Source: a virus
Reading direction: 5' to 3' (one strand)
DNA length: 45,266 nt
IMG/VR virus record: IMGVR_UViG_3300046457_000247
Span: 1 to 45,266 of that record
Both the position numbers and the translations under genes were made by a program. Positions 5,601-43,589 of the stretch are shown piece by piece. Numbering within the stretch: the first letter of the stretch is position 1; each line of letters opens with the position of its first letter. The notes beneath the pieces were generated by a model, which saw only the letters and a program-made list of their open reading frames with translations, made no database searches and was not told the DNA's origin.

Positions 5601-5608
5601 TATTTATC
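5601..5608 (-). promoter_or_regulatory. T4-type late promoter motif GATAAATA
   Basis: The complement reads GATAAATA. It follows a terminator (5616-5642) and precedes the fibre operon beginning at 5570. T4 late promoters have TATAAATA as their only essential element, about 6-13 bases before the transcription start. Confidence 0.6.
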
Positions 5609-5615
5609 GGAGTTG

Positions 5616-5642
5616 AAAAAGCACCCGGCCGGAGCCGGGTGC
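5616..5642 (-). terminator. Intrinsic terminator after the 1378-residue tail gene
   Basis: On the minus strand, a perfect nine-base-pair stem (GCACCCGGC with GCCGGGTGC, 5621-5642), a four-base loop and then five U. It ends the transcript of 5654-9790 just before the next promoter. Confidence 0.85.
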
Positions 5643-5653
5643 TGGTGGTCTGG

Positions 5654-8600
5654 TTAGCCGTGAATGGACAGGGTGCCGGTAGCGATGGACGGAACGAAGG
5701 TGTCAGACTGGCGACTCACATTCACGCTGTAGTCGCCGAGGCCGACAATCTGGAACGTAGGGTCTTTGAAGAACTTGTTCAGATCGCGAGGATGTCCGAT
5801 ATAGCCGACATTACCGGCCCCACCGGTTTTCGGGTGGTTTTTGGTCATTTTGACACCCGGATACACCGTTATTAACCCAACTGGCGGAATAGCTCCGGTG
5901 CCGTTGGGCACGTCGGGAGAAAAGCTCGTGGGCTGATATGCGCCGTACTGTGAGTTGTTCCAGCCGATGCTGATACGAAGATCGTACAAGTTGGGTGTGG
6001 CATTGACGTAGGTGGACGAGAACGGAATGTTGGTCGTTGCCGAAAGGCCATCCTCGTCGGTGACCACCACCGTCAGTGTAAATGCCTCGTTGAAGTATTC
6101 GTGGTTGGCGTACTGGATCGGTGGGTTGCCGGGAGTAAACGGGGCCGTGGCGCTATAGGCGTAGCTGTTCGTCAGGCTACTGACTGCCATGATCTCGTCG
6201 GCGGTGAAGGTCAGGGCCGCGAGCTTGGCGTTGACCTGTGCCTTGTTGCCGGTGAAAGTCCAGACGGCACCGGGTGCCGCGTCGCCGATCTTACCGGCGA
6301 AAGACTTCGACATCGTTGCAGTCACGGTATAAGTGTTGCGGTTGTCGGCGTCCGCGACGACGAGGGCCGGGGTGATCGTGTGAACGCCGGTCGGGTTGTA
6401 AATTTGCTCGACGCCGCCGTTCTGGATCGTGTGGGGCTGGTTGGCCGCAATGCCGTTATAGGTGTGGGTGCCGGTCGAGGTGGACACCGTGTTGGACACC
6501 GTAACACCCATCGTGAAGTTGGCGAAGCTGTCGAAGATCGGCGTAAAGCGGAGCGTTTCCAAGGCCGAATTGACCAGCATCGGTGAGCCGGTGAAGCGCA
6601 CGATGCTGTTGCCACCCGAGGTGCTGTCCGTCCGGGTGACGCCATCCGGTAGCGCCGTCGTCGTCCCCAGCGTGCCGCGCGCAGCCGGGAAGGTGAACTC
6701 AGCGTAGACCGTGTTGGTGTAGGCCAGCGGGTTCATGTTAATCACGCCGCCGACCGTCGAGGACGACAGGTCGGACACGAAGACGTTGATCGAGAAGGAC
6801 TGGCGGAACGGGTCGTCGTTGGTGATGTAAATGGCGGGCAGGTTGAACGGCGTGTCCTCGGTGTAGGACCCGGTATAGTTCAGGTTCGTTGCGCCGAACG
6901 GCTCTGTCGGCTGCGCCGGAATGTACTTCATCGCCGCCAAGGCAGCATTCACTTCGGTGCGGCTGCCGGTCTTGGAGTAGTATTCGAACGCGGTCTCGCC
7001 GGTCGGTGCGAGCGAGCCACATCCAGTGCCCACCGCGTTGTAGATCGCGGTGATCGTGTCGCCCGTATCCGGATCGGTGACGACGATGGCCGGGAAGCTG
7101 AACGGAATGCGAGGATCGTAGGTATAGGTCGCGTTCAGGTTTGTCGCAGTCGGTGCATCATTGATCGGGGTGCACGTCATGATGATCGAACTGGTACGAG
7201 CCGGGGTTTCCACCGTGATGTTGAACGTTAGGTCATAGTTTGCGGCGGGCACAAACGTCACCGAGGACAGTATCGTATTGACGTGGGCGACCTGACCGGT
7301 GATGGTCCTGATCCGGTTGGCTCCAACCACCGTGGTGGTCGCGGTTGCCGTCTGGTAGCTGTTGCTGGTGCTGAGCGAGCCAGCCGCCGAAGGGATCGAC
7401 AGCTTCGCGGTCACGGTGCCGGGAGTATACCCAATTGGCACCGCCGAGATGGTCTTGGTCTGTACAATCCCGGTGTTGTCCGAGTATTGCAGGATGATGT
7501 TGAAGGTCTGGTTGAAGTAGGTGCCGGTCGTCAGGCTGATCGCGGGCGTAATCGCCTTGTTGGTGTCCTCAGTCCACGCGATGGTATGGTCGTCATTGAG
7601 CGTGTCTGTGGTGCCGCTGTTCTTTGGCGTGAAGTTCAGACCACCGATGAGCGCACTCAGTGCGACTGGAGTACCGGAGTAGGTGTAGACGCCATTGGAC
7701 ACTGACATCGGCAGGCCCGAAAACGTACCGACATCCGCAACCGACGTGGAGATCGTCAGCGAGCAGGCGTCCGCCGTGTCGGGATCGCTCAGGGTGATCT
7801 GCTCGCCGATGATGTTATTCAGGAAGTCCGGCCGGTAGTTCAGGGTGGTGGGGGCAGTGAACGTGCTCTTGTCCGCGACCGCATTGCAGTTCATGGTCAG
7901 CGTCGATGAGCCGCCGCGAGCGGTCTGGTCGGAGAATTCAATGCTGATCACAAAGTTGGTGTCCGCGTTGGCGTTCGGTGTGAACTTCAGCGCGGCGAGC
8001 GCGGCGTTAACCTCAACCTCGGACCCCGAAACCGTCCATTTATCGGTCGCGGCGTCCCACGTCCCGCCGCCCGTGGAGGACAGTGCACCGATGCTGGTGC
8101 TGAGCGTAGCGGTCACCGTCAGAACATCGTCGGCATTGACATCACTGATGGACGGAGCGGGGGCAAAGGAATAGACCGCATCTTCCGTCCACAGGTGCGT
8201 GATGTTTGCATTGTTCATCGTCGGCGCAGTCGGCGGCAGGATCGTCTTGACCTTGATCTCCCGCGTCATGCTCTGGCCGAGATCGTTGTTGATCGTCAGG
8301 ATCACCGAGAAGCTTGCCGGATTGACGGCGGCGATCTTGATCGCGAAGGTCCGCATCACCTTGTTGATGTTGCGCAGGGTGTTGGTCGCCTCGTAGTAGC
8401 CCGGTGTCGCGTCAACCGGAGGGTGCCACGATCCAGTGCCAGTCGAGGAGATCACGGCATCCGTCACCTTGCTCATGGTGAAGCGGACGGTGTAGGTCAG
8501 GTCCGAAAATTCAGGCCCAACAATATGCATTGGGAGGACCGGAACAGTGGTCGTGCCCTCAACAACCTCGAAAGACTGATTGCCGTTGATCAGCGTGTAG

Positions 8601-9790
8601 TCCTGAGTATAGAAGTTAATGTTCTCCCGGAGAGTCCCATCATAACGGTCAGTCACGAGCAGTTCGAAGCGTCCGGTCTTGTTGTAGTCGGTGGCTGGAC
8701 GGAAGCGAACGGTGTCGTGATAGGCGTTGAGCGCCGGGCGGACGGCGTAGCACTTCCATGCCAGCGCCCCGGTCTCGCTGTCGATGGCCCAGCGACCAGC
8801 AGCGCGCTCAAGGTCAGCGTTGAGGATGGTGCCGTGGACCAGTTCACCGTGAATGAACAACTCCTGACCGGTTTCCTGTTTCAGGAAGGCCAAGCTGCCA
8901 GCGTCCTGCCGCTTGATTAGAACCACATCAGCCGGGTCGGTTGTGAAGTTGAGCAGGTTAGTACGAACACCCTCGAACGTATCGTAGCGCTCGATGCGCA
9001 GGAACGGCTTGTTGTTGCTGTCGGTGAACGAGGTGGCGACGACGCCATGCAGATGCGCGTTGATGCTGATCGCCGTGGCGATCTTCGACAGGATACCGCT
9101 GGCTCCATCCGACTTGGAAACCGTGGTCCCGCCAATGGTGCCATGGTAATCGACCACCAGCGTGAATGAGGCAGATGGTAGAGTTGCCAGCGCCGTGGTA
9201 TCGACGCTGAGATACTGGTGGCGACCGGACACCGCCTTGGGGGTCCACTTTTCAACGTAGCTGACGACCGAGCCCTTGGTGAAAGCCGGGATATCGAACG
9301 ACTTGGAGGAGGCGTTGACCGTGTACTTCTGGAAGCGCTGCGCCGGGGTGATCGGGGTCATCCAGTAAATCGGCAGGGTGCTGACCTTGAACGGGTCCGC
9401 CTTGGGCTGGAGCGTCATGACGCCGGTCGCCCGCGTCGTCCCACCAACAAAGTTCGTCAGCGTCACCGGAGCCGGAATGGTCGGTAGTTCGGCACCATTG
9501 GCGTCGGCGTGATAAACGAGCGTGCTCAGGACCAGATTGATTTCGGTCGCTGTGCCAATGACAACGAAGCGCCCGAGATCGCCCCAGTAGACACCGGCCT
9601 CGCCGCCCAATTCGGGGTTCTGGCCGGGCACCAGCACAGCTTCACTGGACAGCCGACCGCGATAGGTGCTGGTTCCAAGCTCAATCGTCAGGACCAGCTT
9701 GGTCGTCCCGTAGCTGTCCGGTGCAGTAATGCTGATCGGACAAGCGACACTGCCGCGCTTGGTGTAAATGAACGTCTGTGTTAGTGCCAT
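5654..9790 (-). CDS. Giant Ig/cadherin-like repeat tail protein
   Basis: 1378 residues. Most of it, about residues 400-1300, is a tandem series of roughly 90-130-residue beta-sandwich units. Each ends in a VNAALAALKFTPNAN-like strand pair (VNTILSSVTFVPAANYD, VNAALAAMKYIPAQP, VNSALETLRFTPIFD, VNAKLAALTFTADE) and begins with a D-DTGDT or DPDTADACSL calcium-site-like segment. This is the cadherin/Ig-like repeat type found in large surface adhesins. The N-terminal 400 residues are different and may attach it to the tail tip. The same repeat occurs in the J-like protein upstream. It has a good GGAG site before ATG 9790, a late-promoter motif 45 bases upstream and a terminator after it. It is probably a long side fibre or decoration that binds the host surface. 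Confidence 0.75.
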   Translation of the reverse strand: MALTQTFIYTKRGSVACPISITAPDSYGTTKLVLTIELGTSTYRGRLSSEAVLVPGQNPELGGEAGVYWGDLGRFVVIGTATEINLVLSTLVYHADANGAELPTIPAPVTLTNFVGGTTRATGVMTLQPKADPFKVSTLPIYWMTPITPAQRFQKYTVNASSKSFDIPAFTKGSVVSYVEKWTPKAVSGRHQYLSVDTTALATLPSASFTLVVDYHGTIGGTTVSKSDGASGILSKIATAISINAHLHGVVATSFTDSNNKPFLRIERYDTFEGVRTNLLNFTTDPADVVLIKRQDAGSLAFLKQETGQELFIHGELVHGTILNADLERAAGRWAIDSETGALAWKCYAVRPALNAYHDTVRFRPATDYNKTGRFELLVTDRYDGTLRENINFYTQDYTLINGNQSFEVVEGTTTVPVLPMHIVGPEFSDLTYTVRFTMSKVTDAVISSTGTGSWHPPVDATPGYYEATNTLRNINKVMRTFAIKIAAVNPASFSVILTINNDLGQSMTREIKVKTILPPTAPTMNNANITHLWTEDAVYSFAPAPSISDVNADDVLTVTATLSTSIGALSSTGGGTWDAATDKWTVSGSEVEVNAALAALKFTPNANADTNFVISIEFSDQTARGGSSTLTMNCNAVADKSTFTAPTTLNYRPDFLNNIIGEQITLSDPDTADACSLTISTSVADVGTFSGLPMSVSNGVYTYSGTPVALSALIGGLNFTPKNSGTTDTLNDDHTIAWTEDTNKAITPAISLTTGTYFNQTFNIILQYSDNTGIVQTKTISAVPIGYTPGTVTAKLSIPSAAGSLSTSNSYQTATATTTVVGANRIRTITGQVAHVNTILSSVTFVPAANYDLTFNITVETPARTSSIIMTCTPINDAPTATNLNATYTYDPRIPFSFPAIVVTDPDTGDTITAIYNAVGTGCGSLAPTGETAFEYYSKTGSRTEVNAALAAMKYIPAQPTEPFGATNLNYTGSYTEDTPFNLPAIYITNDDPFRQSFSINVFVSDLSSSTVGGVINMNPLAYTNTVYAEFTFPAARGTLGTTTALPDGVTRTDSTSGGNSIVRFTGSPMLVNSALETLRFTPIFDSFANFTMGVTVSNTVSTSTGTHTYNGIAANQPHTIQNGGVEQIYNPTGVHTITPALVVADADNRNTYTVTATMSKSFAGKIGDAAPGAVWTFTGNKAQVNAKLAALTFTADEIMAVSSLTNSYAYSATAPFTPGNPPIQYANHEYFNEAFTLTVVVTDEDGLSATTNIPFSSTYVNATPNLYDLRISIGWNNSQYGAYQPTSFSPDVPNGTGAIPPVGLITVYPGVKMTKNHPKTGGAGNVGYIGHPRDLNKFFKDPTFQIVGLGDYSVNVSRQSDTFVPSIATGTLSIHG

Positions 9791-9803: not shown

Positions 9804-12800
9804 TTACGTCAGCGCGAGCGCGTCGAGTGCCGTGTATTTATTAGGGTCGGATTTAATGCAACTGACGCTGAACGTGCCGTTGCTGTTCTCCGTGATGCTC
9901 AATACCTTGTACTGGTTGTCCTCGCCCGCGCCAGCGAGGCAGTTGAACGCGGCCCCCGGCGAGAAGCCGTAGGGTCCGGCCAGCGTCAGGATCACGTCCT
10001 TGCCAACCTTCGCCGTCGTTCCAGCGACCGAAACCACCACACCGTCGTCGTTCATGATGTAGAACGTGCCGTCGCCCGGCCCGCGCGACAGGACGTACTG
10101 GCTGTCCGAAATCTTGCGGATAATCCGACCGCCGTACTGGTTCGAGCCGAGCGAGATTTCATCCTCGTTGTTCAGCAGGTAAACCAGATCGCCGGGGATC
10201 AACTGGCTGTGATCCTGCCCAGCGGTGTACGAAACGATGCTGGGATTGGTCTTCTCGGTCGTAATAATCCAAGCCCCGTGACGGCGGGCTTGGCCTTCAC
10301 TGGTGCAACCAAATGCCGCAACCGAATGCTTGACTTCGTAGCCACGGGCCAGAATGTCCACCGGATCGGCGACGAACACGGTATCCTGTTGGAAGTATTT
10401 CGCCGGTTGGTTCCAAGAAATGTCAATAAAATTGTAGTTACTATCCATTGACCCGCCGCTGAAGTTGAATATTCCTCCAGTAACGGTCGAATTGTTCACT
10501 ACCATTACTGGCACGGACGGGCGGTCCTGCATGACACGAACGCCATCGGCGCTGAAAATGACTTGGGCATGCATGACGCCTGCTATGGCATCAAGCACTT
10601 CCAGTCTTGTCATTCCTGCAATCGCGGTGTTGATCGTGTAGCGCCGTTCGGTATCGGTTCCCCGGCCGGTCGGCACGGTCTGGTCGCAACGCTTGGAGCA
10701 CTCGTACAAATCTTGAAGCAGGCGGGTGCGCTGGGCGGGCGTCAGGCGGATCGAATTGCCACAACCGAAGCGGCGGTTCGTAATAAAGCACCAAAGAGCC
10801 CATGCTGGTGATGTAGTATATTCCTGTTTGAACGAAGAATAGTCCCAAGTACCGTGTGATCCCGTGGACGGATCGTAAGCAACTGGCACATCCATGATCA
10901 ACCCGTTAAGAAGAACAGAGATGATCGTGTCATCATCGACTAGCTCCGCAGGCACAGCCATTTCGGTGGTGCTGAGCGAATTGTAGATGCTGTTGGCAAT
11001 CAGGCCAGCGCCAACTGCCGGGAGCAGGTTCAATGCATACTTGCCGAGGCTGGAGAGCAGCGACGGCGAGTTGTCGTTCTTGACGCCGCTGACGCCGCCA
11101 TCCAGAATGCCACCACCGCTCAGCGTCAGATCGCCCTCGGTCTCGGCCGAGATCAGCCAGCCGTTCGCGTCATAGCCCAGCGCTGCTGGTGCAACCAACT
11201 TAATGGTGCTACCAGAAACGTACTCGGCGGTGAAATTCGGTGTGGTCGAGACCGTGTTAACCGAGGACACGAGCGCCTGCGCCGTCAGGGCCAGATTGCC
11301 CTTCCACGTCACCATCGCACTGATCGGCTTCTGGTTGGCGAACAGGCCGATGGCACCGGTCGTACCACCCAGCGTCACGGTGGTGGTGGCACCAACCGCG
11401 TCGCGGGTGATGTTGCCGTTAAGGATTTTGAAGACGCCGCGAGCGCTGGCGCTCTTGTTGGCGCTGTCGATCACGGACGCCGTATAGAGAATGTCGGCGC
11501 TTTCATTGTTGCCGGGGAAATATTGGATGGCCGCGATCATCTGATTGACATTGGCAACCGGACCGGAGACGATCAGCTTCTTGGCGACACCTTGCCACTC
11601 ATAGGAGGCCGGAGGTGCGACTACACTGGTCATCAGGAAACCAGTGCCCTGCTGGAGCGTGAAGGTCACGCTGACATCGGTATCGGCCTGCTGGGTGCTG
11701 GCGCTGAAGACAGGCAGATTGATCGGTGCGATGCTGCCAGCAGAATAGGTCTTGTTCCGGGGCTCCATACCAACGATGGACGGGTTCAACGTGGCACCCT
11801 TGAACACCAGCTTGGCAACCGGCGTGCACGGATCGGTCGGCGGCGGATCGATGGGATCGGGATTATCCGGGCCTTCCGGCTCCTCCGGCGTCTCGGGATC
11901 GGGGTCTTCCGGCGTCACGGGCGGCGGCAGGTTCACATCGGCGTAGCAGCCCTTCGCTATGTAGGTTCCAGAGGCGTTGTACATCGGGTAGATTTCGTCG
12001 TCCGCAATCGTGTTGAGCGGCGGCGGGCACTCCAGCGGCGGCAGCGACGGAATGGTGGGCAGCGGTTTCGGCTCGAACACGGGCGGCGCTACCGGCTCGT
12101 CGGGGATGAAGCTGAAACCTTGGAAGTAGATGTCGCACGAGCTATTGTAATTATCGGCACGATAGATGCGAAGCTCACCCGTGGCGGCGGCACCGCTGAG
12201 CGGATCGCGCACCCGGTTGGGATTGCACGGATCGCTGGCGACGGGCAGACCTTCCCAGTGGAACTCGCCGCTGAGCGACACTGAGTAGTCGGTGTACTTG
12301 TCGGTCACCTGCATGATGCCGGACTTGACCAGCGTGCCGTTCTGGACGACGCACCAAACCAGCGACACGGTGCCGTTGATGCGACACGTGATGGTTTCCG
12401 GAGCGCGGGTGCCCTCGAAGCTGGGGTCCTCCACGACCATTGTCCGGGTCTTGGTCTGCGTCAGGTAGTGACCATTGAGATGGTAGTGCAGGCGGAAGCG
12501 GCCGGGCGACGACAAGTCTATGTTTTCGCTGTACACCTTGTTGTCGCCCGTGTGCGGCAGCAGCTTCAGCGGTTCGAACTGGCGCTTCGGCGGAGCCGCG
12601 TAGGTCGAGGTTTCGCTGAAGGAGAAGGGCGCAATGGGGTTGCAGTTGTAGTCCAGCGCGGGCTGGGCGACGCTGGCGCTGACCACATTCGGGGTGACCA
12701 GCGTGGTCATGACAGAGGCGGTGCTGGCGACACTGGCGACGCTCGCAGTCCCGGTGTCGGTGCCCTCGTCGGTCTCGCCGTCCGTCTCGCCATCGGTCTC

Positions 12801-17264: not shown

Positions 17265-17581
17265 GCGCCGTCCCTCTTCTGTTTGTCTTGGACCCGCTGG
17301 ACAGCCGTAAGGAATGCCTCGTCCAAAGCCCCGATTATTTCAAGAAATTCCCTTCGCCGAGTAATGCCATACAACTCGATGTAGGCTTGTTTTGAAGGGA
17401 ACGGGATTGCACTTATCCCGCCCATTCCATTATTTAGGCGGTCAGCCGATAGTGCGTCGAACGCACGCATGTAACTCACGGCGTACAGGGGCAGGACTGG
17501 GCAGGGGTGATGGCGCATGATGCTGGGGACATGGGAATATTTTCCCCACTCCACGCGCCATTCAATCAGGTCAGCGCACTT
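17261..17581 (-). CDS. GT extension of the tail assembly chaperone, made by -1 frameshift
   Basis: This frame has no convincing start of its own (only a GTG at 17554 without a good ribosome site). It overlaps the end of the chaperone gene at 17566-18105. Entering it by a -1 slip at the A-AAA-AAA heptamer (17581-17587) adds 106 residues beginning KCADLIEWRVEWGKYS and gives a fusion of about 281 residues. The G/GT arrangement just before the tape measure is conserved in long-tailed phages: both short and fused forms bind the tape measure during tail assembly. The frame ends with a TGA overlapping the tape measure GTG. A TAAATA motif at 17431-17438 lies inside it. Confidence 0.8.
   Translation of the reverse strand, partial: KCADLIEWRVEWGKYSHVPSIMRHHPCPVLPLYAVSYMRAFDALSADRLNNGMGGISAIPFPSKQAYIELYGITRRREFLEIIGALDEAFLTAVQRVQDKQKRDGA
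17431..17438 (-). promoter_or_regulatory. Late promoter motif CCTAAATA upstream of tape measure
   Basis: The complement reads CCTAAATA. It lies within the GT frame, about 170 bases before the tape measure start. It is the farthest from its gene in the set, so the call is weaker. Confidence 0.35.
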
Positions 17582-18105
17582 TTTTTTAGATCGGACACCA
17601 TCTCCGGCTCTTTTTCAGCCTCGGTGCTGATGTGCTGGACCTGCTCGGAGACCCACTCGCGGAACACGTCGTTGCGGGTCAGCAGGTCGGTGGCGCTGGC
17701 GAAGCTGTAGTCCACGGCCTTGCCGCCGATCACGACGCCGGTCCACTGGGTGATGTGCGCAGCCAGAAAGGCGCTCATCATGGCAATGTACTCATCGCCA
17801 TTCTTGAAGTGGTCCATTCGCTTGGGCTGGACGGCCTCGGCGACCGGAGCCGGTGCCGGGGTGCCCTCGGCCTCGGCGGTCTCGCAGTCGGTCAGGTACT
17901 TCTCGTGGTGGGCGGCGGCGACGGCGTACTCGAAGTTGGCGCGGAAATAGGTTTCGAGGCGTGCCAGCTTGTCGAAATCGTACTTCCGGCCAAGGGTGGC
18001 CCAAACATTCTCGTGCATGCGGGGGAGAATGCGAAAGACAATGCCGCTCTGGTGAGCGACTTCAACGGACGGGTCTTCGGCCTTAAAAATGCTATCGAAA
18101 TCCAT
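17566..18105 (-). CDS. Tail assembly chaperone (G-like)
   Basis: 179 residues, with GGAG five bases before the ATG. It lies between the tail tube gene and the tape measure, the standard position of the G chaperone. The sequence is helical and charged, with an alanine/proline-rich linker near residues 85-100. It ends DLKKSALT at TGA 17566-17568. Just before the end, codons CTA AAA AAA form a slippery site that feeds the overlapping -1 frame (17261-17581). A late promoter motif at 18153-18160 and a terminator-like hairpin lie directly upstream. Confidence 0.8.
   Translation of the reverse strand: MDFDSIFKAEDPSVEVAHQSGIVFRILPRMHENVWATLGRKYDFDKLARLETYFRANFEYAVAAAHHEKYLTDCETAEAEGTPAPAPVAEAVQPKRMDHFKNGDEYIAMMSAFLAAHITQWTGVVIGGKAVDYSFASATDLLTRNDVFREWVSEQVQHISTEAEKEPEMVSDLKKSALT
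17580..17587 (-). promoter_or_regulatory. Programmed -1 frameshift site, A-AAA-AAA
   Basis: Eight consecutive A on the coding strand, read CTA AAA AAA AGT in the zero frame. The heptamer A AAA AAA allows both tRNAs to re-pair after a -1 slip. The -1 frame is then open for 106 codons, while the zero frame stops four codons later. Confidence 0.8.
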
Positions 18106-18120: not shown

Positions 18121-18149
18121 GAAAGAAGGGCGAACCCAAAGGCTCGCCC
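18121..18149 (-). terminator. Terminator-like hairpin after the tail tube gene
   Basis: On the minus strand, GGGCGA pairs with TCGCCC (18144-18149 with 18128-18133), followed by TTCTTTC. The U-run is imperfect. The promoter motif at 18153-18160 directly abuts it, so a start about six bases downstream would fall within the first arm. Confidence 0.5.
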
Positions 18150-18152
18150 TCC

Positions 18153-18160
18153 TATTTATT
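18153..18160 (-). promoter_or_regulatory. Late promoter motif AATAAATA before the chaperone gene
   Basis: The complement reads AATAAATA, 48 bases before the chaperone ATG and immediately ahead of a hairpin. Confidence 0.6.
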
Positions 18161-18180: not shown

Positions 18181-19119
18181 TTACGCGCTGCGCTCGACCG
18201 TCAGAGTCTTCGAGTCCGTGCCCCCGAGCGTTCCTTGGAAGCCGATCTCCAAAACAACGTCTTGGTCCAATCCGCCAGCATTGCGGGTCCGGCTGGTCAG
18301 GATCAGGTTCTCGAAGGTGAACTTGTACCAAGCGCCATTCACGTCCGGGATTTTGATCGCCAGCTTAATTGGTGCACCATTTTTGTAGGCTGTGTTAATG
18401 GAATTGGTGCCGCTAAAGTAAGCCTGAAGAGTTCCGGTCAGGTTCGAGCGACCCATGCCAATACCGGCAAGATTAGCCGACCCGATTTGACGTTGTTCCC
18501 TTGCATTATTTTCGAGGGAGAACTGGAAATTCACGAGACCGCCAGTATAGGCCACGCCGTTTACTTCCAGAACCACGTCGTCATCGACGGCGGTCATGAA
18601 CGGATTGGTGCTGGCCGGAGTGACGCTCGACATGATCGTGGTGGCGGCATCGGCGAAGCTGCGGGCCATCAGACCGAAGGTCGCGGTGACCATCTGGCCG
18701 GTTGCCATCGAGACCGACAGGTTGGTGATCTCAGCGCCCCGGTAGATTTCGCACTGATCCCCGGTTGCGTCCGGGAAGATTTTTTCAACCGTCCACGAGG
18801 TGCGGTTAACACCGTTCTGGAGCTTGTCGCCGACCCAAAGTCCCTGAAGGGCCGAAGCAAGTAGAGCTTCAATAATCGGAGCCTTCTTAAGCTCGATATT
18901 CAAATCACCAGCGTTCGTGAAGCCAACAGTCGTGGCTCCGGGGACCTGACGATCCGAACGGAAGGAGTTCGAAGTAATGGTCTGGCGGGCGTTGTTCAGG
19001 CTCTCACCAGTAATCTCAAGTTCCGAACCAACCGGCGTTGCGGGGGTAACGCCCGGCGTGACTTCCGCAACAAGGCGAATGCCGGTACGAGAACTATCAC
19101 TTGTTGCGACGAATGCCAC
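18181..19119 (-). CDS. Major tail (tube) protein
   Basis: 312 residues from a GTG at 19119, chosen because GGAGG stands eight bases before it; a TTG five codons earlier overlaps that site. The early region, TGIRLVAEVTPGVTPATPVGSELEITGESLN followed by SNSFRSDRQVPGATTVGF and GDLNIEL, is the hallmark of the siphophage tail tube family (Phage_tube_2). A second part with FSLENNAREQRQIGS follows. It polymerises into the non-contractile tail tube. It lies after the tail-terminator-type genes and before the chaperones. The SNSFRSDRQ motif is split here only for description. Confidence 0.85.
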   Translation of the reverse strand: MAFVATSDSSRTGIRLVAEVTPGVTPATPVGSELEITGESLNNARQTITSNSFRSDRQVPGATTVGFTNAGDLNIELKKAPIIEALLASALQGLWVGDKLQNGVNRTSWTVEKIFPDATGDQCEIYRGAEITNLSVSMATGQMVTATFGLMARSFADAATTIMSSVTPASTNPFMTAVDDDVVLEVNGVAYTGGLVNFQFSLENNAREQRQIGSANLAGIGMGRSNLTGTLQAYFSGTNSINTAYKNGAPIKLAIKIPDVNGAWYKFTFENLILTSRTRNAGGLDQDVVLEIGFQGTLGGTDSKTLTVERSA

Positions 19120-19146: not shown

Positions 19147-19154
19147 TATTTATC
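19147..19154 (-). promoter_or_regulatory. Late promoter motif GATAAATA before the tail tube gene
   Basis: The complement reads GATAAATA. The TAA stop of the preceding gene is inside the motif. The tail tube GTG lies 28 bases downstream. A strong separate promoter for the abundant tube protein would make sense. Confidence 0.65.
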
Positions 19155-20850: not shown

Positions 20851-21801
20851 TTAGATGTTGACCTTCAGGGCAAACATCGGGACGTTCTTGATGTCGGTGG
20901 TGCGGACCCACTTGGTGCCGTCCTTGAGGACGGAAGCGGCCGGGGACTGACCGTTCGCGCCAACGTCGCCGAGGAAGCTCAGACCCATGGGGTGGATCAC
21001 GAACGAACGACGGGTGTACAGGTTGACATCATCGGTGGCGGGCTTGTATTCAGTCGTGTTGCTGATCAGGTCGAGACCTTCAGCGAAACCAATCGAACCA
21101 GCGGCCAGACCATAGATGGTGGCAACGCCTTCGCCGTCGATCAGCGCTTCGTCCTCGATGATCGGCAGGCCGCGATAGACGCGGACAACGCCACCGGTCG
21201 AATTCGGGATATACTGAATTGCATCCTGACGCTCCATTTCGGCGACCACGAGCGGGTGGGCGGCGAGCAGGGCGACCTTGCCGCGAGCGGAAAGCAGCTT
21301 GTAAGAAGCGGTCAGGAAGTTGTTGAGCGAGAACTTGTCGGCACCGCCCGTGGCAGCAGTAACGTCAGTAACGACGCCAGCCATCGAGGACGAAGCGAAG
21401 ACGCCTTCCAGAACTTCCAAGGTGTGGGTCTGGAACTCGCGCTCCCAGTGAGCAGCCACGCGGCTGGCAATGTAACCAACCAAGTCTTCGCCAGTATAAG
21501 CCTGCGCCAGCAGGTTGACCGAGAAGGCATCGCCCTTGCTGTTGACTACAGCGTGCTGCACGCCGGAACCGATCTTCTTGGTTTCCAGAGCAGTGTTGTC
21601 GGCGAGGACTACCGGACGACCGGTCAGGTCAGTAACGAACGGGACCGTCAGCTTCGCGCCTTTGGTGATCGCCAGACCCGGAACGGTGCGGACTGCGCCG
21701 CTCTTGAACAGATTGGTTTCAATCGTGCTGTTTTCAGCAACGTAGCTGCCGAACGAAGTAGGCAGAACGAGATCGGCAAGCCGAGTAATGAGATTAGCCA
21801 T
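20851..21801 (-). CDS. Major capsid protein
   Basis: 316 residues, GGAG seven bases before the ATG. The sequence has the layout of HK97-fold coat proteins: KGAKLTVPFVTDLTG, then GVQHAVVNSKGDAFSVNLLAQAYTGEDLVG, an E-loop/spine helix region with ASRVAAHWEREFQTHTLEVLEGVF, and late strands including VVRVYRGLPIIEDEAL and SFVIHPMGLSFLGDVG. The V-Y-GLPI-DE-motif and the W-R-Q-L-L-GVF segment recur in siphophage coat proteins. It lies between the scaffold-like gene and the connector genes. Confidence 0.85.
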   Translation of the reverse strand: MANLITRLADLVLPTSFGSYVAENSTIETNLFKSGAVRTVPGLAITKGAKLTVPFVTDLTGRPVVLADNTALETKKIGSGVQHAVVNSKGDAFSVNLLAQAYTGEDLVGYIASRVAAHWEREFQTHTLEVLEGVFASSSMAGVVTDVTAATGGADKFSLNNFLTASYKLLSARGKVALLAAHPLVVAEMERQDAIQYIPNSTGGVVRVYRGLPIIEDEALIDGEGVATIYGLAAGSIGFAEGLDLISNTTEYKPATDDVNLYTRRSFVIHPMGLSFLGDVGANGQSPAASVLKDGTKWVRTTDIKNVPMFALKVNI

Positions 21802-27745: not shown

Positions 27746-28005
27746 CGGCGGAATTCTGGTGGCTACAGGAGGTGAAATGGCGGGTCGAGCGCGACCGCAT
27801 CGCTCACGATGAACGCATGGTCCTGAAAGAGTTCGGCCACGTCGTCGTCATTTGGGATGACTACCGCGAAGCGCTGGAGTGGTGCCATACCAGCGCCGGG
27901 GAATTCGGGATTGACTGGGTGTGCGGCCTGTCAGGGCGGAACTGCGGGTCCTTCGCCTTCAAGGATATGGGGAAAGCCGCCCTGTTCAAGCTGCTCTTCA
28001 CATAA
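27742..28005 (+). CDS. Small unknown protein, FKL-tail family
   Basis: 87 residues, start overlapping the preceding stop (ATGA). It contains EFGHVVVIWDDYREALEWCH and ends SFAFKDMGKAALFKLLFT, the A-x-LFKL-type tail. The last eight bases overlap the end of the convergent gene at 27998-28321. Function unknown. Confidence 0.6.
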   Translation: MTAEFWWLQEVKWRVERDRIAHDERMVLKEFGHVVVIWDDYREALEWCHTSAGEFGIDWVCGLSGRNCGSFAFKDMGKAALFKLLFT

Positions 28006-28462: not shown

Positions 28463-28675
28463 TTAGCACCAAAATGTCTTGAACAGGACGGCGATTTTGT
28501 CGTCCCATATGATGTAGCGACGGCAGCCCATCTCCACCGGCTGGCTTCGAACCCCCAAGTCTTCCAGCCAGTCGGCGGCATCGTTGCGGAACTGGGTGTT
28601 CTGCATGGGCTCGCGCAGGACGATCTGCTTGGGGGTGCGGTCGAAGAAGAAGATCAGCGTCGGCCGGTAAGTCAT
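28463..28675 (-). CDS. Small unknown protein, FKL-tail family
   Basis: 70 residues. It begins MTYRPTLIFFFDRTPKQIV and ends RRYIIWDDKIAVLFKTFWC, a variant of the LFKL-x-W-C tail seen in its neighbour at 28677-29045. The start lies one base after that neighbour's stop, so the two are likely co-translated. Function unknown. Confidence 0.6.
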   Translation of the reverse strand: MTYRPTLIFFFDRTPKQIVLREPMQNTQFRNDAADWLEDLGVRSQPVEMGCRRYIIWDDKIAVLFKTFWC

Positions 28676-28676: not shown

Positions 28677-29045
28677 TCAGCACCAAGTCAGTTTGAACAG
28701 GGTGGCTTCGGACAGGTCTTCGAACAAAATTATCCGGCTGGTGCGGATCGTCATCTGGAGAAGGTCGTCGCCATCGTCGTCGTCACCATAGGTCCACAGG
28801 GCCGGGCTGATGGCGAATTCTCGTTCACAGCGATCACCCAGCCACATCACCATGTCGCCGAAGTTGGTGTCCGGCCGGGCGTGGATGTTCGCCAGCGGCG
28901 CACAGGCTTCGGTGATCGTGATCCGGTGGGGCAGATAGTGGAAGCGCTGCTCGAACTCTTGCAGGCGGGAGGCGTTGGCGCGCTTCTTGGCGTCGAGAAC
29001 GTCTTGGCAGACGGTGGCGGACAGGGTGGGGACAGGGTTGGGCAA
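28677..29045 (-). CDS. Small unknown protein, FKL-tail family
   Basis: 122 residues from a TTG at 29045 with GGAG seven bases upstream. It carries an acidic stretch, GDDDDGDDLLQ, near residue 90 and ends FEDLSEATLFKLTWC. The F-x-D-x-x-x-A-x-LFKL-x-W pattern is the clearest member of the repeated tail. It heads a four-gene minus-strand cluster running to the membrane proteins. Function unknown. Confidence 0.6.
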   Translation of the reverse strand: MPNPVPTLSATVCQDVLDAKKRANASRLQEFEQRFHYLPHRITITEACAPLANIHARPDTNFGDMVMWLGDRCEREFAISPALWTYGDDDDGDDLLQMTIRTSRIILFEDLSEATLFKLTWC

Positions 29046-29718: not shown

Positions 29719-30183
29719 TCAACCCTCGTCGTCGTCGTCCGGTAGGTCGATGATGGTGGCCTGCTGGTCTAGCTGGGCGAAGGGGTTGGGTAGCTGGGGC
29801 GTCACGTCCTTGGCGTCAAGCTGGGTGAACATATGCGGGGCTTCGCCGTTGCCCATCACAATACTGATGGTGTGCGTCGTCGTGCTGGTGGTGTCCACGC
29901 TCTTCTTCTCGGCGTGCTTCCTCTTGAGCAGCATGTCGATATAGCCCTTCTGCTGGGCCGGGTCCTCCAGCTTGGTGACGATCAGCATGGCGTGGATTGC
30001 CGGGTCGTACTCCATGAAGTCACAGATTTCATCGAAAGACTTGCCTTGGAGCTTGCGGCACATGGCGCGCAGTTCTTTGTTGGCCTCTTCGACGGCGTTC
30101 TCTTTGGCTAGTGTCTTCTTAGTCTTCTTCCCTGCTGGCATTCCTCCGCCACGATTGGGATCAAACCCCTTTTTGAAAGCCAT
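29719..30183 (-). CDS. Possible small terminase subunit
   Basis: 154 residues from ATG 30183 (AGGAG twelve bases upstream); a longer frame begins at 30249 but would overlap the promoter motif. It begins MAFKKGFDPNRGGGMPAGKK, then a charged helical region (ENAVEEANKELRAMCRKLQGKSFDEICDFM is the most ordered part), and ends with an acidic tail, LPDDDDEG. Small terminases often have a basic/helical N-terminal part and an acidic C-terminus, and a late promoter motif precedes it, but it is 4 kb from the large subunit and no DNA-binding motif is certain. Confidence 0.45.
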   Translation of the reverse strand: MAFKKGFDPNRGGGMPAGKKTKKTLAKENAVEEANKELRAMCRKLQGKSFDEICDFMEYDPAIHAMLIVTKLEDPAQQKGYIDMLLKRKHAEKKSVDTTSTTTHTISIVMGNGEAPHMFTQLDAKDVTPQLPNPFAQLDQQATIIDLPDDDDEG

Positions 30184-30252: not shown

Positions 30253-30260
30253 TATTTAGG
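30253..30260 (-). promoter_or_regulatory. Late promoter motif CCTAAATA
   Basis: The complement reads CCTAAATA, 70 bases before ATG 30183. Confidence 0.5.
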
Positions 30261-36635: not shown

Positions 36636-36698
36636 TAGTTGGTTCCGGGGAGTGTTGGTACGGTGCACCAGTTCAATCGTCAACAAGGAATTTGGTTC

Positions 36699-37604
36699 AT
36701 GCGTATCGCACTCCTCGCTTCCGTCGCTCTGATCGGTCTCTCGTTCCCGGCATCGGCGCAGGTTCTAAGCCCCGCTCCTTCTGTCGCCAACAACGACGGC
36801 ATGATGACCCAGTACGGGTCCAGCAACACCTTCATCGGCAGCCAGTCCGGTAAGGACAACTACAGCAGCCAGATTCAAGGCAGCCAGTTCGCCACGGTGA
36901 CCGAAGCTCGGGGCGAAGTGACACAGACCGGCAACTGGAACCAGTCCACGCAGTTGCAGCGGTCCAACTACGACCTTGCCAAGACCATCCAGACCGGCAA
37001 TACCAACGAGTCGATCATCTCGCAGGATCGCAGCGTCGATGGCCGCAACACCAGCCTGACCACACAGACCGGCGATCTGAACAAGGTCGAAACCAAGCAG
37101 CAGGATGGAGGCTCGAACCGGTTTGAATCCACGCAGATCGGCAACAAGAACAACATCTTCTCTTACCAGATCAGCAAGTCCAACCTCGCCTACATCGATC
37201 AGAACGGCGACGAAAACAAGGCGACCGTTTGGCAGTACATGGGCGGCAATAACACCACCGACGCCACGCAGAACGGCAACAAGAACACCATCAACGTGAA
37301 GCAGGGGGAGAGCCGGAGCGACCGCTGGAACACCCCGCTGAACAACAGCACCTATCTGACGCAGACCGGCAATTCGAACATCATCACGGTCGAGCAGCTT
37401 GGCACCAGCAGCGGGGCGAACATCTACCAGACCGGCAACAACAACATCGGGTCCGTCTGGCAGTACAGCGGTACGGCTAATCAGGCGACGATCACACAGA
37501 ATGGCGACATGAACCACGGCAGCGTCAGCCAGCAGGGCAGCAAGGACTGGGGCCGCATCTATCAGCAGGGCTACGACAACGCGGCCCACATGACGCAGAA
37601 GTAA
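36699..37604 (+). CDS. Secreted curlin-repeat (CsgA/CsgB-like) protein
   Basis: 301 residues from ATG 36699 (AAGGA nine bases upstream). The first 20 residues, MRIALLASVALIGLSFPASA, are a Sec signal peptide with an A-S-A cleavage site. From about residue 35 on there are roughly a dozen repeats with the curlin pattern Q-x-G-x-x-N, such as TQTGNWNQS, IQTGNTNES, TQTGDLNKV, QNGNKNTI, TQTGNSNII, YQTGNNNIG and TQNGDMNHG, with some degenerate units (QQGSKDWG, QQGYDNAA). Curlin subunits form extracellular amyloid fibres. Host-like moron, or a phage surface protein; no CsgE/F/G partner genes are in the window. Strong terminators stand before (35090) and after (37632) this section. Confidence 0.8.
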   Translation: MRIALLASVALIGLSFPASAQVLSPAPSVANNDGMMTQYGSSNTFIGSQSGKDNYSSQIQGSQFATVTEARGEVTQTGNWNQSTQLQRSNYDLAKTIQTGNTNESIISQDRSVDGRNTSLTTQTGDLNKVETKQQDGGSNRFESTQIGNKNNIFSYQISKSNLAYIDQNGDENKATVWQYMGGNNTTDATQNGNKNTINVKQGESRSDRWNTPLNNSTYLTQTGNSNIITVEQLGTSSGANIYQTGNNNIGSVWQYSGTANQATITQNGDMNHGSVSQQGSKDWGRIYQQGYDNAAHMTQK

Positions 37605-37840: not shown

Positions 37841-37850
37841 CTCGGCATCA

Positions 37851-38985: not shown

Positions 38986-39491
38986 GCGATCTGCGGGAGG
39001 CTCCAGATCGTGGCGTAGTCGATCAGGCGGCAGGGCACACTGTAGACGACACCGTTGTTGGCAGTGTGCCCCAAGGGAGGCACCGTGCTGTGGGCGAGGA
39101 AGTCGGCCTTGCTGATCCAGCCGACATGCCAGCCCCATATCGCGCGCGGATCGCTTTGCGTGAAGGCATAGGAGTCGGTCTGCTGGGTGTTGTTGATGAT
39201 CACGGCGTCGAAACTGGGCGCGGGCTGCTGAACCCGATCCTTCGCTTTGACATCGGCCGTGACCATGACGCCGTTGGGCAGGATCACCTCGTAGTCGTAC
39301 TGGAACCCATTGACGCGGGTGAACGACAGACCTTTGTGCTTCAGGTATGCCTCGAACAATTCCTCGCCGAGGAATCCCTGAAAGTTCCTGTGTCCCCCAG
39401 TGTAGCTGTTCGGTAGGGTTCCCATGGCGTTGGCGGCATTGAGCGCGCGGGTCCGCATGGCCTGATCGATAGCGATTTTCATGGCGGTCAT
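38982..39491 (-). CDS. PD-(D/E)XK-like nuclease (candidate)
   Basis: 169 residues from ATG 39491, overlapping the preceding stop (ATGA). Candidate active-site elements: GFLGEELFEAYLKHKG near residue 40 (acid in the first helix), FQYDYEVILPNGV near residue 70, and VTADVKAKDR near residue 83, with the D-x-K pair of the core strand. This order (E, D, then D-x-K) fits the restriction endonuclease-like fold. No specific subfamily is recognised. It is oriented against the neighbouring replication-type gene and shares the last four bases (CTAG) with it. Confidence 0.5.
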   Translation of the reverse strand: MTAMKIAIDQAMRTRALNAANAMGTLPNSYTGGHRNFQGFLGEELFEAYLKHKGLSFTRVNGFQYDYEVILPNGVMVTADVKAKDRVQQPAPSFDAVIINNTQQTDSYAFTQSDPRAIWGWHVGWISKADFLAHSTVPPLGHTANNGVVYSVPCRLIDYATIWSLPQIA

Positions 39492-39754
39492 GCGAACACC
39501 AGCTTGCAAAGGGCTGCGTCCTGCTGGTCCCAAAACGCGATCCAGCCGTTCTCGTGCGAGTAGGGGATGGCGTTCTCGTCATCCTCGTCCTGCTCCTCGT
39601 CCATGCCCATGAACCAACCGAAGTAATTTCCTCGGCAGGCGCGCAGGAAGTCGCTGAGTTCGGTGCTGAGCGTAATATCTTCGCAGTCGTTGCAGGGGCG
39701 GGCGTAGCCCTCATAGTGGTCCGAGCCGACCTTGACCCGGTAAATCTTACTCAT
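39488..39754 (-). CDS. Small acidic protein, FKL-like tail
   Basis: 88 residues from ATG 39754 (AAGG upstream). It begins MSKIYRVKVGSDHYEGYARP, has CNDCED, an acidic stretch (MDEEQDEDDENAIPYS) and ends NGWIAFWDQQDAALCKLVFA, a variant of the A-x-LFKL tail with Cys in place of Phe. Its stop overlaps the nuclease candidate's start (ATGA). A weak promoter (TTGCAG, 18 bases, TATATG) is seen upstream at about 39790-39820. Function unknown. Confidence 0.6.
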   Translation of the reverse strand: MSKIYRVKVGSDHYEGYARPCNDCEDITLSTELSDFLRACRGNYFGWFMGMDEEQDEDDENAIPYSHENGWIAFWDQQDAALCKLVFA

Positions 39755-39863
39755 AGCAAAAGCGCCTTTCGTGGGTAGGAGCCCCATATACCACTTTGTT
39801 CGTTCGGCCTGCAATATCTGGTTGCGCTGGGTGATGGCGTCGGCTAGGGAGGCGGCGGGTACG

Positions 39864-39933
39864 GGGCTACGACAATGACAGCAGAAGCGTGTTGCCAGCC
39901 TGTTTACCAAATAGCCTTCACGGGCTACGACAA
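39864..39933. repeat. Two outlying copies of the array hairpin motif
   Basis: GGGGCTACGACAA ends one copy (39863-39875) and a stem-loop AGCC-TTCACG-GGCT followed by ACGACAA forms the second (39912-39933). They lie 58 bases apart and in the opposite orientation to the array at 44392-44862. The first copy lacks a clear matching arm. Confidence 0.5.
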
Positions 39934-39988
39934 CAACGTGTACACCGCGTCGGTGTTCTCCCGACGACCAAGCCCCGGCCCGAATACG

Positions 39989-40316: not shown

Positions 40317-40589
40317 AAAGATTTTTTCACGGCTATGCCAGATCATGATCATGGCGATGATCGCTGACGCGATCCTCGCAGCCCTGATCCATCTGGTCAG
40401 GGCTCCGCCCTTTCCAGAAACAGATCAGTGCCTTTCCAGATACATACAATGCTCGGCTCCGCCCTTTTCCTTGCTTTATTCCGTCAATTAGTTGCTTAAG
40501 TCCTTTAGGAATTATTCGATGGAATAAAATTATATTGATTAGCTGGAGTATGCGGCGTAAAACGGCTTATTGGTTTGGAGAAATTTTTC

Positions 40590-42116
40590 GTGAACGAATT
40601 GACCATATACTACAGCGGCGCACGGTGCGGCGCTGGCAAAACCGACTGGATCGTGGCCTCTACCGCCCAGCAACCCGGCCGCAGCGTCATCGCGGTGGAT
40701 CGCCGGGAGGTCATGGACGGCCTCAAGGAACGACTGGACAACGCCGCCATGGAGGCGGGTCACCGGCCGGTCATCGACATCATCCGCAGCCCGCTGTCGT
40801 CCGCCGACATCGAGGGCACCAGCAACGTCCGCCGCGACTTCCGGATGGCTGCCGACAAGCACCGCCACCGGCCGCACGTCATCGTGATCGTGACGCATGA
40901 AGCGCTGCGCGGCAGCGATCTGACCGGCTTCACCGGCTGGGACCTGTACATTGACGAGGTGCCCTCGATCATCGACATGGCGGAATGCTGCACGCCTGCT
41001 CAGATCGACCACTTCGCCGCCTGCTACCGGCTGGTGCCGGTCACCCCCGGCGTCTCGCAGATCGTCGCCACCGAGAATACCCCGACCGTCGCCATGTACG
41101 CCGAGGATCAGGACTTGTCGGAATGGGTGTCGTTCCGCCGCCGCGTCGGCTCGGAGCAGGGCGTCTTCACCAACCTGACCGACTGGACCGACATGGCCGG
41201 GAGCAATCACTGGCAATGGTGGTCGATCTGGTCGCCCTACGAACTGAGCGCGTTCAACCGGATCGTCATGGTCGGCAACGCCTTCATGTCCAGCCTGACC
41301 GCCAAGGTGATCCAGCACAATTTCCCGCAGGTCGAACTCAAGGAGTTCCACATCGGCTCGCGCCCGTGGCAGCCGCGCAACGTCACGATCCGGTACTTCG
41401 CCGATAACCATGTCGCTGGCAGCAATCTTTGGTTCGGCTGCCCGGAAACCAAACGGAAGGGTATCCGGCCGGTCGGCGAGATTTGCCCGGCGCGCTGGAT
41501 GGACTGGGTGCGCAACAACACCGATCACGGCCAGCACGTCTGGACATCCAACGTCACGGTGGCGATGTGGCTGACCGGCACCGACATTCCGAACCGGATC
41601 ACGCCGAAGGTGGCGGGCAGCAACAAGTACCGCGACCGCACGGTGGCCTCGATCATCTATTCCAGCAAGGTTCGTCCGACGCTGATCCCGGTCTACCGCG
41701 CCTTGGGGATCGAGCCGGAGGATGTCGTGCGGGCGCAGGAGCACGAGGACATCGCCCAGTTCGCCATGCGCACCTCGCTGCGGATGCCCAACGATGATCG
41801 CGCAGTCGAAATCCGCGTCTACGACTACGAGCAGGCCAGCATCCTGAAGCGGTATCTGGAGGACAACTACCCCTTCGCGGTGGCGCTGGTCTATCAGGAC
41901 ATCGGGATCAACCACATCGTCAAGGCCCGACCCGGACCGAAAGTGCCCGAGCGCACCCAGTCGGAGCAGGCGGCGCACGCGGTGCAGGTCAGGAAGACCA
42001 ACGCCGAGAAGGCCAAGGAGCGGCGCGACGCCGAGAAGGCAGCCAAGATCGCGGCCGGGACCTACAAGCCGAGAGGCCGTCCCAAGGGCTGGCGGAAGGT
42101 GAAAGACCATGACTGA
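40590..42116 (+). CDS. Helicase-like ATPase with basic AT-hook-like tail
   Basis: 508 residues from GTG 40590 (GGAG ten bases upstream). Walker A near residue 10 (SGARCGAGKTDWIV) and a DEVPS box near residue 130 (LYIDEVPSIIDM), preceded by VIVIVTHEALRG, a common motif Ia/Ib context in superfamily 2 helicases. A later VGNAFMSSLTAKVIQ fits the motif III/IV area. The last 35 residues are very basic and include TYKPRGRPKGWRK, an AT-hook-like R-G-R-P core, suited to DNA binding. Its Walker B is DEVPS rather than DEAD/DExH. Probably part of the phage replication module, but a ring or packaging motor cannot be excluded. Confidence 0.65.
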   Translation: MNELTIYYSGARCGAGKTDWIVASTAQQPGRSVIAVDRREVMDGLKERLDNAAMEAGHRPVIDIIRSPLSSADIEGTSNVRRDFRMAADKHRHRPHVIVIVTHEALRGSDLTGFTGWDLYIDEVPSIIDMAECCTPAQIDHFAACYRLVPVTPGVSQIVATENTPTVAMYAEDQDLSEWVSFRRRVGSEQGVFTNLTDWTDMAGSNHWQWWSIWSPYELSAFNRIVMVGNAFMSSLTAKVIQHNFPQVELKEFHIGSRPWQPRNVTIRYFADNHVAGSNLWFGCPETKRKGIRPVGEICPARWMDWVRNNTDHGQHVWTSNVTVAMWLTGTDIPNRITPKVAGSNKYRDRTVASIIYSSKVRPTLIPVYRALGIEPEDVVRAQEHEDIAQFAMRTSLRMPNDDRAVEIRVYDYEQASILKRYLEDNYPFAVALVYQDIGINHIVKARPGPKVPERTQSEQAAHAVQVRKTNAEKAKERRDAEKAAKIAAGTYKPRGRPKGWRKVKDHD

Positions 42117-42432: not shown

Positions 42433-42441
42433 GACAATTTT

Positions 42442-42880: not shown

Positions 42881-42892
42881 GGGAGACGGGAT

Positions 42893-43216
42893 TTGGGCAA
42901 GACAGTGACATACGGGGATCGCGAGTTTGACCTTCAGGAAGTCATTCGCCTGCTCAATCAGGCGAGCAGCGTGCGCGCCGTGATCCGGCAACTCGACCTG
43001 CCGGTGGGCGGCGGCAGCTACCGCTTTCTCAATCAGGTGATCGAGGGCTGCGGCGTCGATATCAGCAGGATGCCCCGGCAGGCGTGGGCCGCTGGCCTGA
43101 CGATTGAGCACCCGCTGATCCGCAAGCGCCAGTCGCGCATGCCGCCGACCCGGCACCGGCTCAAGAAGGCGGAGAAGGAAGCGCTGGCACGCCAGCAGCA
43201 GATGGAGCAGGCTTGA
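42893..43216 (+). CDS. Homing-endonuclease-type helical domain protein, nuclease part missing
   Basis: 107 residues from TTG 42893 (GGGAG eight bases upstream). The segment LNQASSVRAVIRQLDLPVGG and then YRFLNQVIEGCGVDISRM matches the DNA-binding helical unit that precedes HNH domains in many phage homing-type proteins (S-x-R-x-V-x-x-x-L-x-L...G-x-Y...GVD-S). No HNH follows. The C-terminus is a basic helix. It overlaps the convergent resolvase-like gene by 56 bases. Confidence 0.5.
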   Translation: MGKTVTYGDREFDLQEVIRLLNQASSVRAVIRQLDLPVGGGSYRFLNQVIEGCGVDISRMPRQAWAAGLTIEHPLIRKRQSRMPPTRHRLKKAEKEALARQQQMEQA

Positions 43217-43565
43217 TCAGGGCGAAGAAGGCGTCCATGTCGAGGACGACCAGCGGCTTCCTGCGATCCTGCTTGATCACGACCAGCGGCGTCAGGTTGC
43301 CCTGAGAGGCAGCCTGATCCATCGCGTCATAGATCAGGCTGAAGCCCGCCGCGCGGGCTTTGACTTCCACCTCATAGGGAAATGCCGCCTTGGCGGCGGT
43401 GCTCAGGATCACATCCGAGCCATTGCTGCCCATCGGGCAACTTCTGACATCATCCTCGGTCAGTGCCGAGAAGGTATCTAAAACTTTGGCGACGACCGCC
43501 TGCTGCGCGCGTCTTCCTTTTGCCTTACCGGCTTGTACACTAATCCGAGCCACGTTAAACACCAT
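43161..43565 (-). CDS. Holliday junction resolvase-like (PD-(D/E)XK) protein
   Basis: 134 residues from ATG 43565. The core matches phage PD-(D/E)XK resolvase-type proteins: GSNGSDVILSTAAKAAFPYEV (D and the strand), EVEVKARAAGFSLI with the E-x-K pair near residue 70, IYDAMDQAASQGN and then LVVIKQDRRKPLVVLDMDAF. These enzymes resolve branched DNA before packaging, which fits a late promoter. Its promoter motif (43582-43589) is divergent from that of the next gene. It overlaps the end of 42893-43216. Confidence 0.7.
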   Translation of the reverse strand: MVFNVARISVQAGKAKGRRAQQAVVAKVLDTFSALTEDDVRSCPMGSNGSDVILSTAAKAAFPYEVEVKARAAGFSLIYDAMDQAASQGNLTPLVVIKQDRRKPLVVLDMDAFFALIKPAPSAAGVPALPSPPS

Positions 43566-43566
43566 C

Positions 43567-43574
43567 CATAAATA
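43567..43574 (+). promoter_or_regulatory. Late promoter motif CATAAATA, plus strand
   Basis: The only plus-strand member found in a gene gap. It lies 27 bases before ATG 43602. Confidence 0.55.
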
Positions 43575-43581
43575 CTAATCC

Positions 43582-43589
43582 TATTTACG
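43582..43589 (-). promoter_or_regulatory. Late promoter motif CGTAAATA, minus strand
   Basis: It faces the resolvase-like gene. The plus-strand motif lies seven bases away, so two divergent late promoters share 23 bases. Confidence 0.5.

Follow-up and report, generated by a model that had tools for sequence, protein, structure and literature searches.

Does a virus whose structural genes are those of a siphophage carry the late promoters of phage T4? The question is raised by the IMG/VR virus record IMGVR_UViG_3300046457_000247, whose 45,266 nucleotides, the entire record, were analysed here as one window and in which the hexamer TAAATA recurs in front of late genes. In T4, the late promoter has the form TATAAATA at positions -13 to -6, and its first T is poorly kept among relatives (PMC1524935). 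A -35 element is lacking in these promoters, and of the three phage proteins associated with them, gp55, gp33 and gp45, gp33 is small and variable (PMC2988020). A preliminary description of the window had read its TAAATA boxes as T4-family late promoters used with a gp55 sigma factor. Our analysis suggests that a T4-style set of putative late promoters is real in this siphophage, which by its structural genes stands outside the T4 superfamily, and an unrelated fragment that we read as podophage provides a second case of such boxes.

Enrichment and position of the TAAATA boxes

TAAATA occurs 13 times in the window, 12 times on the minus strand, which is the late strand, and once on the plus strand, and all 13 coordinates listed in the preliminary description are exact. 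The comparison with shuffled sequence which it had suggested is clear in its outcome: 100 dinucleotide shuffles gave a mean of 3.61 and a maximum of 8, and none of them reached 13. One-mismatch variants of the hexamer have no comparable minus-strand bias. The full octamer TATAAATA is present once, at 26358-26365, again as described, and taken alone it is not significant, being present in 8 of 100 shuffles.

A gene map of 56 genes (87% coding) was drawn for this analysis. In the gaps between the called genes the minus strand holds 9 TAAATA sites as against 1.1 expected, a number reached in none of 1,000 shuffles. Among the hexamers of the late-strand gaps, TAAATA ranks first (7 vs 0.53 expected, p 1.5e-6). 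Over the entire minus strand it ranks 38, 3, 11 and 5 of about 4,096 hexamers under Markov models of order 1 to order 4, respectively. Since TAAATA is not top-ranked over the entire strand, its position rather than its raw count is the strongest point of the evidence. One site, at 17431, was scored as a gap site solely because the map omitted the probable tail-chaperone frame around it, and it may be a chance occurrence.

The structural genes of the window match siphophage families rather than T4-type head and tail genes, in agreement with the preliminary description, and provide the virus with head, tail and packaging genes of its own. The portal is of the YuA kind (34.5% identity to YuA in tblastn over 91% of the query, expect value (E) 6e-46). 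Boxes head the genes for the portal, the scaffold, a tail protein, the tail chaperone and the tail fibre group, and likewise a gene for a protein of 1378 residues that adjoins the J-like tail gene, small genes without an assigned role and a small-gene operon running to the large terminase (24117-25448). A RusA-like resolvase gene (43161-43565, minus strand), isolated within a plus-strand region of early type, also has its own box; in T4, too, gene 49, which codes for the resolvase, has a late role. The box of the resolvase gene faces the only plus-strand box, and the two, at 43569 (+) and 43582 (-), make up a 19-bp palindrome, TAAATACTAATCCTATTTA (43569-43587), from which the predicted starts at 43580 (+) and 43576 (-) would diverge, four bases apart.

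Form and spacing of the boxes

When the sites are aligned, the hexamer is common to all of them and is directly preceded by A in 8 of 13, while the column profile is otherwise flat. An extended form of 34 nucleotides, which includes the ribosome-binding region, is common to sites 5601, 19147 and 24107. In the 50 bases before the 13 sites, the best shared 6-mer is present in 4 of 13, the same as in shuffled upstream sequence, and the late region shows no excess of sigma-70-like sites (5 vs 6.3 and 3 vs 5.6 expected). A sigma-28-like reading of GCCGATAA at 19147 was rejected, as the other sites are without it and no matching -35 element is seen by eye.

The distance from the end of the box to the start codon is 6-84 nucleotides in 11 of the 12 late-strand sites, site 17431 being the exception. 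The preliminary description had placed nearly all sites 25-70 bases before a late gene; this is correct for 8 of the 12 minus-strand sites, the other four lying at 6, 17, 84 and 167. Placing the start point (+1) six bases past the box, as in T4 (PMC1524935), gives predicted leaders of 0 to 78 bases (161 for the doubtful site 17431), and a leaderless mRNA is predicted from box 27293. The sites thus have the look of T4 late promoters, each consisting of a single -10-like box that lacks a -35 element and is closely followed by a late gene.

Comparison with other phages

The Sinorhizobium phage phiN3, a member of the T4 superfamily with 49% guanine plus cytosine (GC) that encodes gp55 and a sliding clamp, served as a yardstick. 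In 50 kb of phiN3, TAAATA is found 20 times on the minus strand and 2 times on the plus strand, with boxes directly before the genes for the gp23 head protein, the scaffold, the tube and the sheath. On the same order-1 measure, p is 1.5e-4 for phiN3 and 1e-6 for the late strand of the window. Both have TAAATA strongly one-sided and directly before head and tail genes; they differ in the base before the box, which is commonly C in phiN3 (mostly CTAAATA) and A in the window. With T4 itself, the window shares (A)TAAATA, the lack of a -35 element, one box per late unit and location on the late strand. It differs from T4 in its siphophage head and tail genes, in that its 45 kb yielded neither gp55 nor a T4-type clamp and in that some boxes abut terminator-like hairpins, and the starts given here are predicted ones. 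The T4-family reading of the boxes is thus supported by their enrichment, their one-sided distribution before late genes, the lack of a -35 partner, the published T4 geometry and the match to phiN3; what does not accompany it is a gp55 relative among the 464 reading frames of the window.

Comparable promoters have been described in other phages. The middle/late promoters of phiEco32, a non-T4 phage, are single elements read by the sigma gp36, which is without region 4, and start 6-8 bases downstream of the box; they differ in that the box is tAATGTAtA and the sigma gene is known (PMC8948821). Phage rV5 has a T4-late-like motif, TggTAaAAtA, and no homologues of gp55, gp33 and gp45, but it is of another phage kind and its motif, found by MEME in 8 copies, is looser (PMC3606486). 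A counter-example is the T4-like phage Ma-LMM01, which lacks gp55 and has late promoters resembling those of its host (PMC5780444). In the literature as surveyed in part, with few subscription journals, no report of TAAATA late promoters in a siphophage was found. The statement in the preliminary description that no siphophage with such promoters is known is to that extent uncontradicted, with a related precedent in the non-siphophage rV5 (PMC3606486).

YuA-like siphophages (Mesyanzhinovviridae) resemble the window in their portal, about 32-37% identical, and in the way their head, connector and tail genes are arranged, and differ in that TAAATA is rare, with 1-2 per genome. In each of four GC-rich portal relatives counted whole, TAAATA occurs once or twice over both strands together, and the YuA record annotates -24/-12 promoters along with sigma70 promoters needing a phage cofactor. 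Of 456 portal relatives in IMG/VR, 80 were tested (portal identity 32-38%), and the smallest p in 160 strand tests was 0.004 (locus L026, minus strand), compared to 1e-6 in the window. Among 16 portal relatives in bacterial genomes no clear TAAATA user was found; the lowest p, 0.003, belongs to an AT-rich locus (42% GC) and to the strand opposite the portal gene. The boxes are thus not a trait of this phage kind, no strand of the 80 IMG/VR relatives approaching the significance of the window.

Several candidates were set aside. Loci L026 and L019 were rejected as TAAATA users since, by eye, no boxes stand before their late genes, and the opposite-strand excess of AT-rich loci such as L154, L177 and L137 was put down to coding bias, probably from Tyr-Leu codons. 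A single match to a 23-base extended motif in IMG/VR falls where an AT-rich contig looks to be coding, and was judged to be due to chance. No close relative of the window was found in single-protein scans of IMG/VR (portal, head, terminase and helicase) or by megablast of positions 1-25000 against phage records.

One GC-balanced locus, L170, stands out among the terminase relatives, of which 80 of at least 481 were tested. It is part of an IMG/VR record of 27,137 bases, which we read as a podophage because it encodes a head-tail adaptor and tail tubular proteins of podophage type. The record has TAAATA 12 times on the late strand and once on the other, and none of 1,000 shuffles reached 12 (mean 3.5). 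The p of the locus, 2.9e-4, comes out of 160 tests, in which p was similar or lower for AT-rich loci; these were ascribed to coding bias. By eye, 11 of the 12 boxes lie at or shortly before late-strand gene starts and one is located mid-gene; an A directly precedes the box in 9 of 12. By portal, HTVC010P (36%) comes closest to L170 among named relatives, and in it only 1 of 14 listed late-strand gaps contains TAAATA, overlapping the flanking stop and start codons in a genome that is AT-rich. TAAATA was therefore rejected as a trait of the L170/HTVC010P group, and no other clear user was found among the portal relatives of L170, apart from L170 itself (re-found as L184).

Boxes abutting hairpins

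At some junctions the box directly abuts a strong hairpin. The hairpin at 18153 would be weakened from -23.6 to -10.9 kcal/mol if the RNA begins at the predicted +1, and that at 22688 from -19.8 to -10.0 kcal/mol. In the L170 record the corresponding values are -20.1 and -7.2 kcal/mol at 10720, and -10.0 and -1.8 kcal/mol at 4671. Hairpins of -19.8 kcal/mol or stronger are present in 13 of 811 sampled late-strand 44-mers; 3 in 24 sites corresponds to a binomial probability of 0.006, which was computed post hoc, with the pattern already noticed. The simplest reading of this overlap is that the terminator of one unit is overlaid on the promoter of the next, in such a way that only transcripts initiated there would pass and read-through would not.

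The factor reading the boxes

We consider it moderately probable that the TAAATA boxes are single-element late promoters and that their reader is a region-2-only phage sigma encoded outside the record. In such a mechanism, the host RNA polymerase core together with a phage specificity factor reduced to sigma region 2, the part that reads the -10 box, would bind (A)TAAATA and initiate about 6 bases downstream of the box, once per late transcription unit. The factor would act in trans, most likely as the product of a gene for a minimal sigma, gp55-like or of another sort, in the absent part of the genome. At the junctions where the box abuts the terminator of the prior unit, upstream read-through would stop there, while a transcript from +1 would carry only a partial hairpin and escape. 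A sigma of this kind would explain the motif, the missing -35 element and the late placement, and no new principle is needed. As far as sequence tells, the set would work like T4 late promoters, and it may belong to the gp55 system.

Several results weigh against this explanation. Over the entire minus strand, hexamers other than TAAATA are more overrepresented, presumably driven by coding, and the major head gene (20851-21801) has only a one-mismatch box (ATAAATT, 21834-21840), and could alternatively be transcribed from the scaffold box. The search for gp55 proposed in the preliminary description, which expected a gp55-like sigma and a co-activator to be encoded elsewhere in the genome, gave no relative in the window. 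With profiles from 7 proteins, ranging from T4 to Caulobacter and cyanophage forms, the best hhalign probability among the 464 reading frames was 5.7%, compared to above 99.6% for held-out gp55 proteins in the same test. PHROG gp55 families are absent from the window, a fragment, as are sigma region 2 (PF04542), region 4 and the gp45-type clamp C-domain (PF09116). No gp55 was found in 50 fetched records of relatives, in a search that detects four gp55-encoding phages which are themselves profile members; it was not found in the L170 record either. The absence of gp55 from the window is weak evidence because the record, classed as linear, is a fragment whose left end is cut within a gene. Some kilobases are probably absent from it, since several relatives with long contigs run to about 51 to 65 kb.

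The reader might instead be encoded in the window and have been missed by the profiles, as a new kind of sigma or as an activator working with the host sigma. Most plus-strand genes of 30.5-44 kb are indeed without a family match, and precedents are offered by rV5, with its T4-late-like motif and no homologues of gp55, gp33 and gp45 (PMC3606486), and by the single-element late promoters and region-4-less sigma of the non-T4 phage phiEco32 (PMC8948821). We nevertheless regard it as rather unlikely, given that no sigma domain was found in the window and that an activator with host sigma normally leaves an upstream binding site, of which none is shared among the sites. Two single-sequence structure models (mean pLDDT, the predicted local distance difference test, 47 and 46), one of them the uninformative model of gene 29719-30183, were too poor to use. 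That the virus has no reader of its own and draws, as a late-transcription parasite, on the gp55 machinery of a T4-type phage that co-infects the same host seems improbable to us. The box and its geometry equal those of a gp55-encoding Sinorhizobium phage, no reader gene was found in the window, and among 50,697 phage records its helicase-like gene (40575-42116) finds a match in the T4-type jumbo phage Atu_ph07 alone; however, the window has head, tail and packaging genes of its own and a replication-initiator-like gene, and in a fragment an absent gene tells little.

A host alternative sigma would account for the boxes in two unrelated small phages, the window and L170, in neither of which the recorded part encodes a detected gp55. 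Host alternative sigmas usually require two elements, whereas no second element is common to the sites, and the 16 portal relatives from bacterial genomes include no clear TAAATA user, which makes this decidedly improbable. It is very improbable that the boxes are not promoters at all and are by-products of stop codons or of the T-rich terminator tails of opposite-strand transcripts. Boxes 19147 and 26358 do overlap a stop codon, and 9835, 22688 and 26978 adjoin hairpins, where an opposite-strand tail would read TATTTA. Most sites have neither, so that only a few are accounted for; moreover, the late genes of phiN3 are headed by the same box, and 8 of the 13 sites retain the A in front of it.

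A wider reading covers both the window and L170, and we hold it only tentatively. T4-type late promoters would extend beyond the T4 superfamily, at least two unrelated phages, one siphophage and one podophage, having converged on or acquired TAAATA; their reader would be something other than a recognisable gp55, and some boxes would be nested in terminators, insulating the late units. As part of that same joint reading, the reader would be a new minimal sigma or a gp55 borrowed from a co-infecting T4-type phage.

Genes and other features of the window

The boxes, the two strong hairpins and a group of proteins with a common C-terminal tail are listed in Table 1. Gene 29719-30183, downstream of box 30253, is by eye a possible candidate for the small terminase. 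The tail fibre group is closed by a protein with RCC1-like (regulator of chromosome condensation) repeats (108-1328, minus strand).

Table 1. Putative promoter boxes, hairpins and proteins with a common C-terminal tail in the window
Feature	Position	Strand	Remarks
ATAAATA box	5601-5606	-	heads gene 5187-5570 and the tail fibre group
ATAAATA box	9835-9840	-	heads the gene of the 1378-residue protein, 5654-9790; just within the end of the J-like tail gene
TAAATA, doubtful	17431-17436	-	within the probable tail-chaperone frame; 167 nt upstream of the tape measure gene
ATAAATA box	18153-18158	-	heads the tail assembly chaperone gene 17566-18105
ATAAATA box	19147-19152	-	heads the tail protein gene 18181-19119; overlaps the preceding stop codon
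ATAAATT, one mismatch	21834-21840	-	heads the major head protein gene 20851-21801
CTAAATA box	22688-22693	-	heads the scaffold gene 21891-22604
ATAAATA box	24107-24112	-	heads the portal gene 22696-24081
Full TATAAATA	26358-26365	-	heads the small-gene operon to the large terminase (24117-25448); overlaps the preceding stop codon
ATAAATA box	26978-26983	-	heads gene 26357-26953 (198 residues, no assigned function)
GTAAATA box	27293-27298	-	predicted +1 falls on the A of the ATG start codon (27287)
CTAAATA box	30253-30258	-	heads gene 29719-30183
ATAAATA box	43569-43574	+	heads plus-strand genes 43593/43647-43934 and 43927-44175
GTAAATA box	43582-43587	-	heads the RusA-like resolvase gene 43161-43565
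Strong terminator-like hairpin	18124-18153	-	13 pairs; abuts box 18153
Strong hairpin	22656-22688	-	14 pairs; abuts box 22688
..AALFKLxW-tail protein	26991-27287	-	
..AALFKLxW-tail protein	27742-28005	+	
..AALFKLxW-tail protein	28463-28675	-	
..AALFKLxW-tail protein	28677-29045	-	
..AALFKLxW-tail protein	39488-39910	-	

The ..AALFKLxW-like tail is common to five small window proteins that are otherwise dissimilar. It was rejected as a marker of T4-type phages, the same regular expression giving five matches in the window and no match in the examined portions of Cr30, phiN3 and Atu_ph07.

In the plus-strand region, the gene at 36639-37604 (plus strand) encodes a protein with what by eye looks to be a signal peptide and with six copies of the curlin-associated repeat (PF07012 of Pfam, E 2.5e-24), which are unexpected for a phage. 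The helicase-like gene (by eye) at 40575-42116, likewise on the plus strand, has as its sole match among the phage records the Agrobacterium jumbo phage Atu_ph07, at 21.5% identity over 81%; the matches are two records, both of this T4-type phage. A hairpin repeat, TTGTCGTAGCCCC..GGGGCT, is present in nine copies at 44386-44866 on the plus strand, separated by unrelated stretches of mostly 31-33 nt, and in two further copies 58 nt apart on the opposite strand (39871-39938). The spacing is like that of clustered regularly interspaced short palindromic repeats (CRISPR), the repeats are diverged, and no match to Rfam was found.

Significance

A T4-type promoter in small siphophages and podophages would mean either that gp55-type sigmas move between phage kinds or that a sigma of another kind reads the same box. 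As a third option, such small phages may live off the machinery of a T4-type phage, and all three are directly testable. Phages without a replicative clamp of their own would, in addition, reveal whether promoters of this type work without activation by a clamp.

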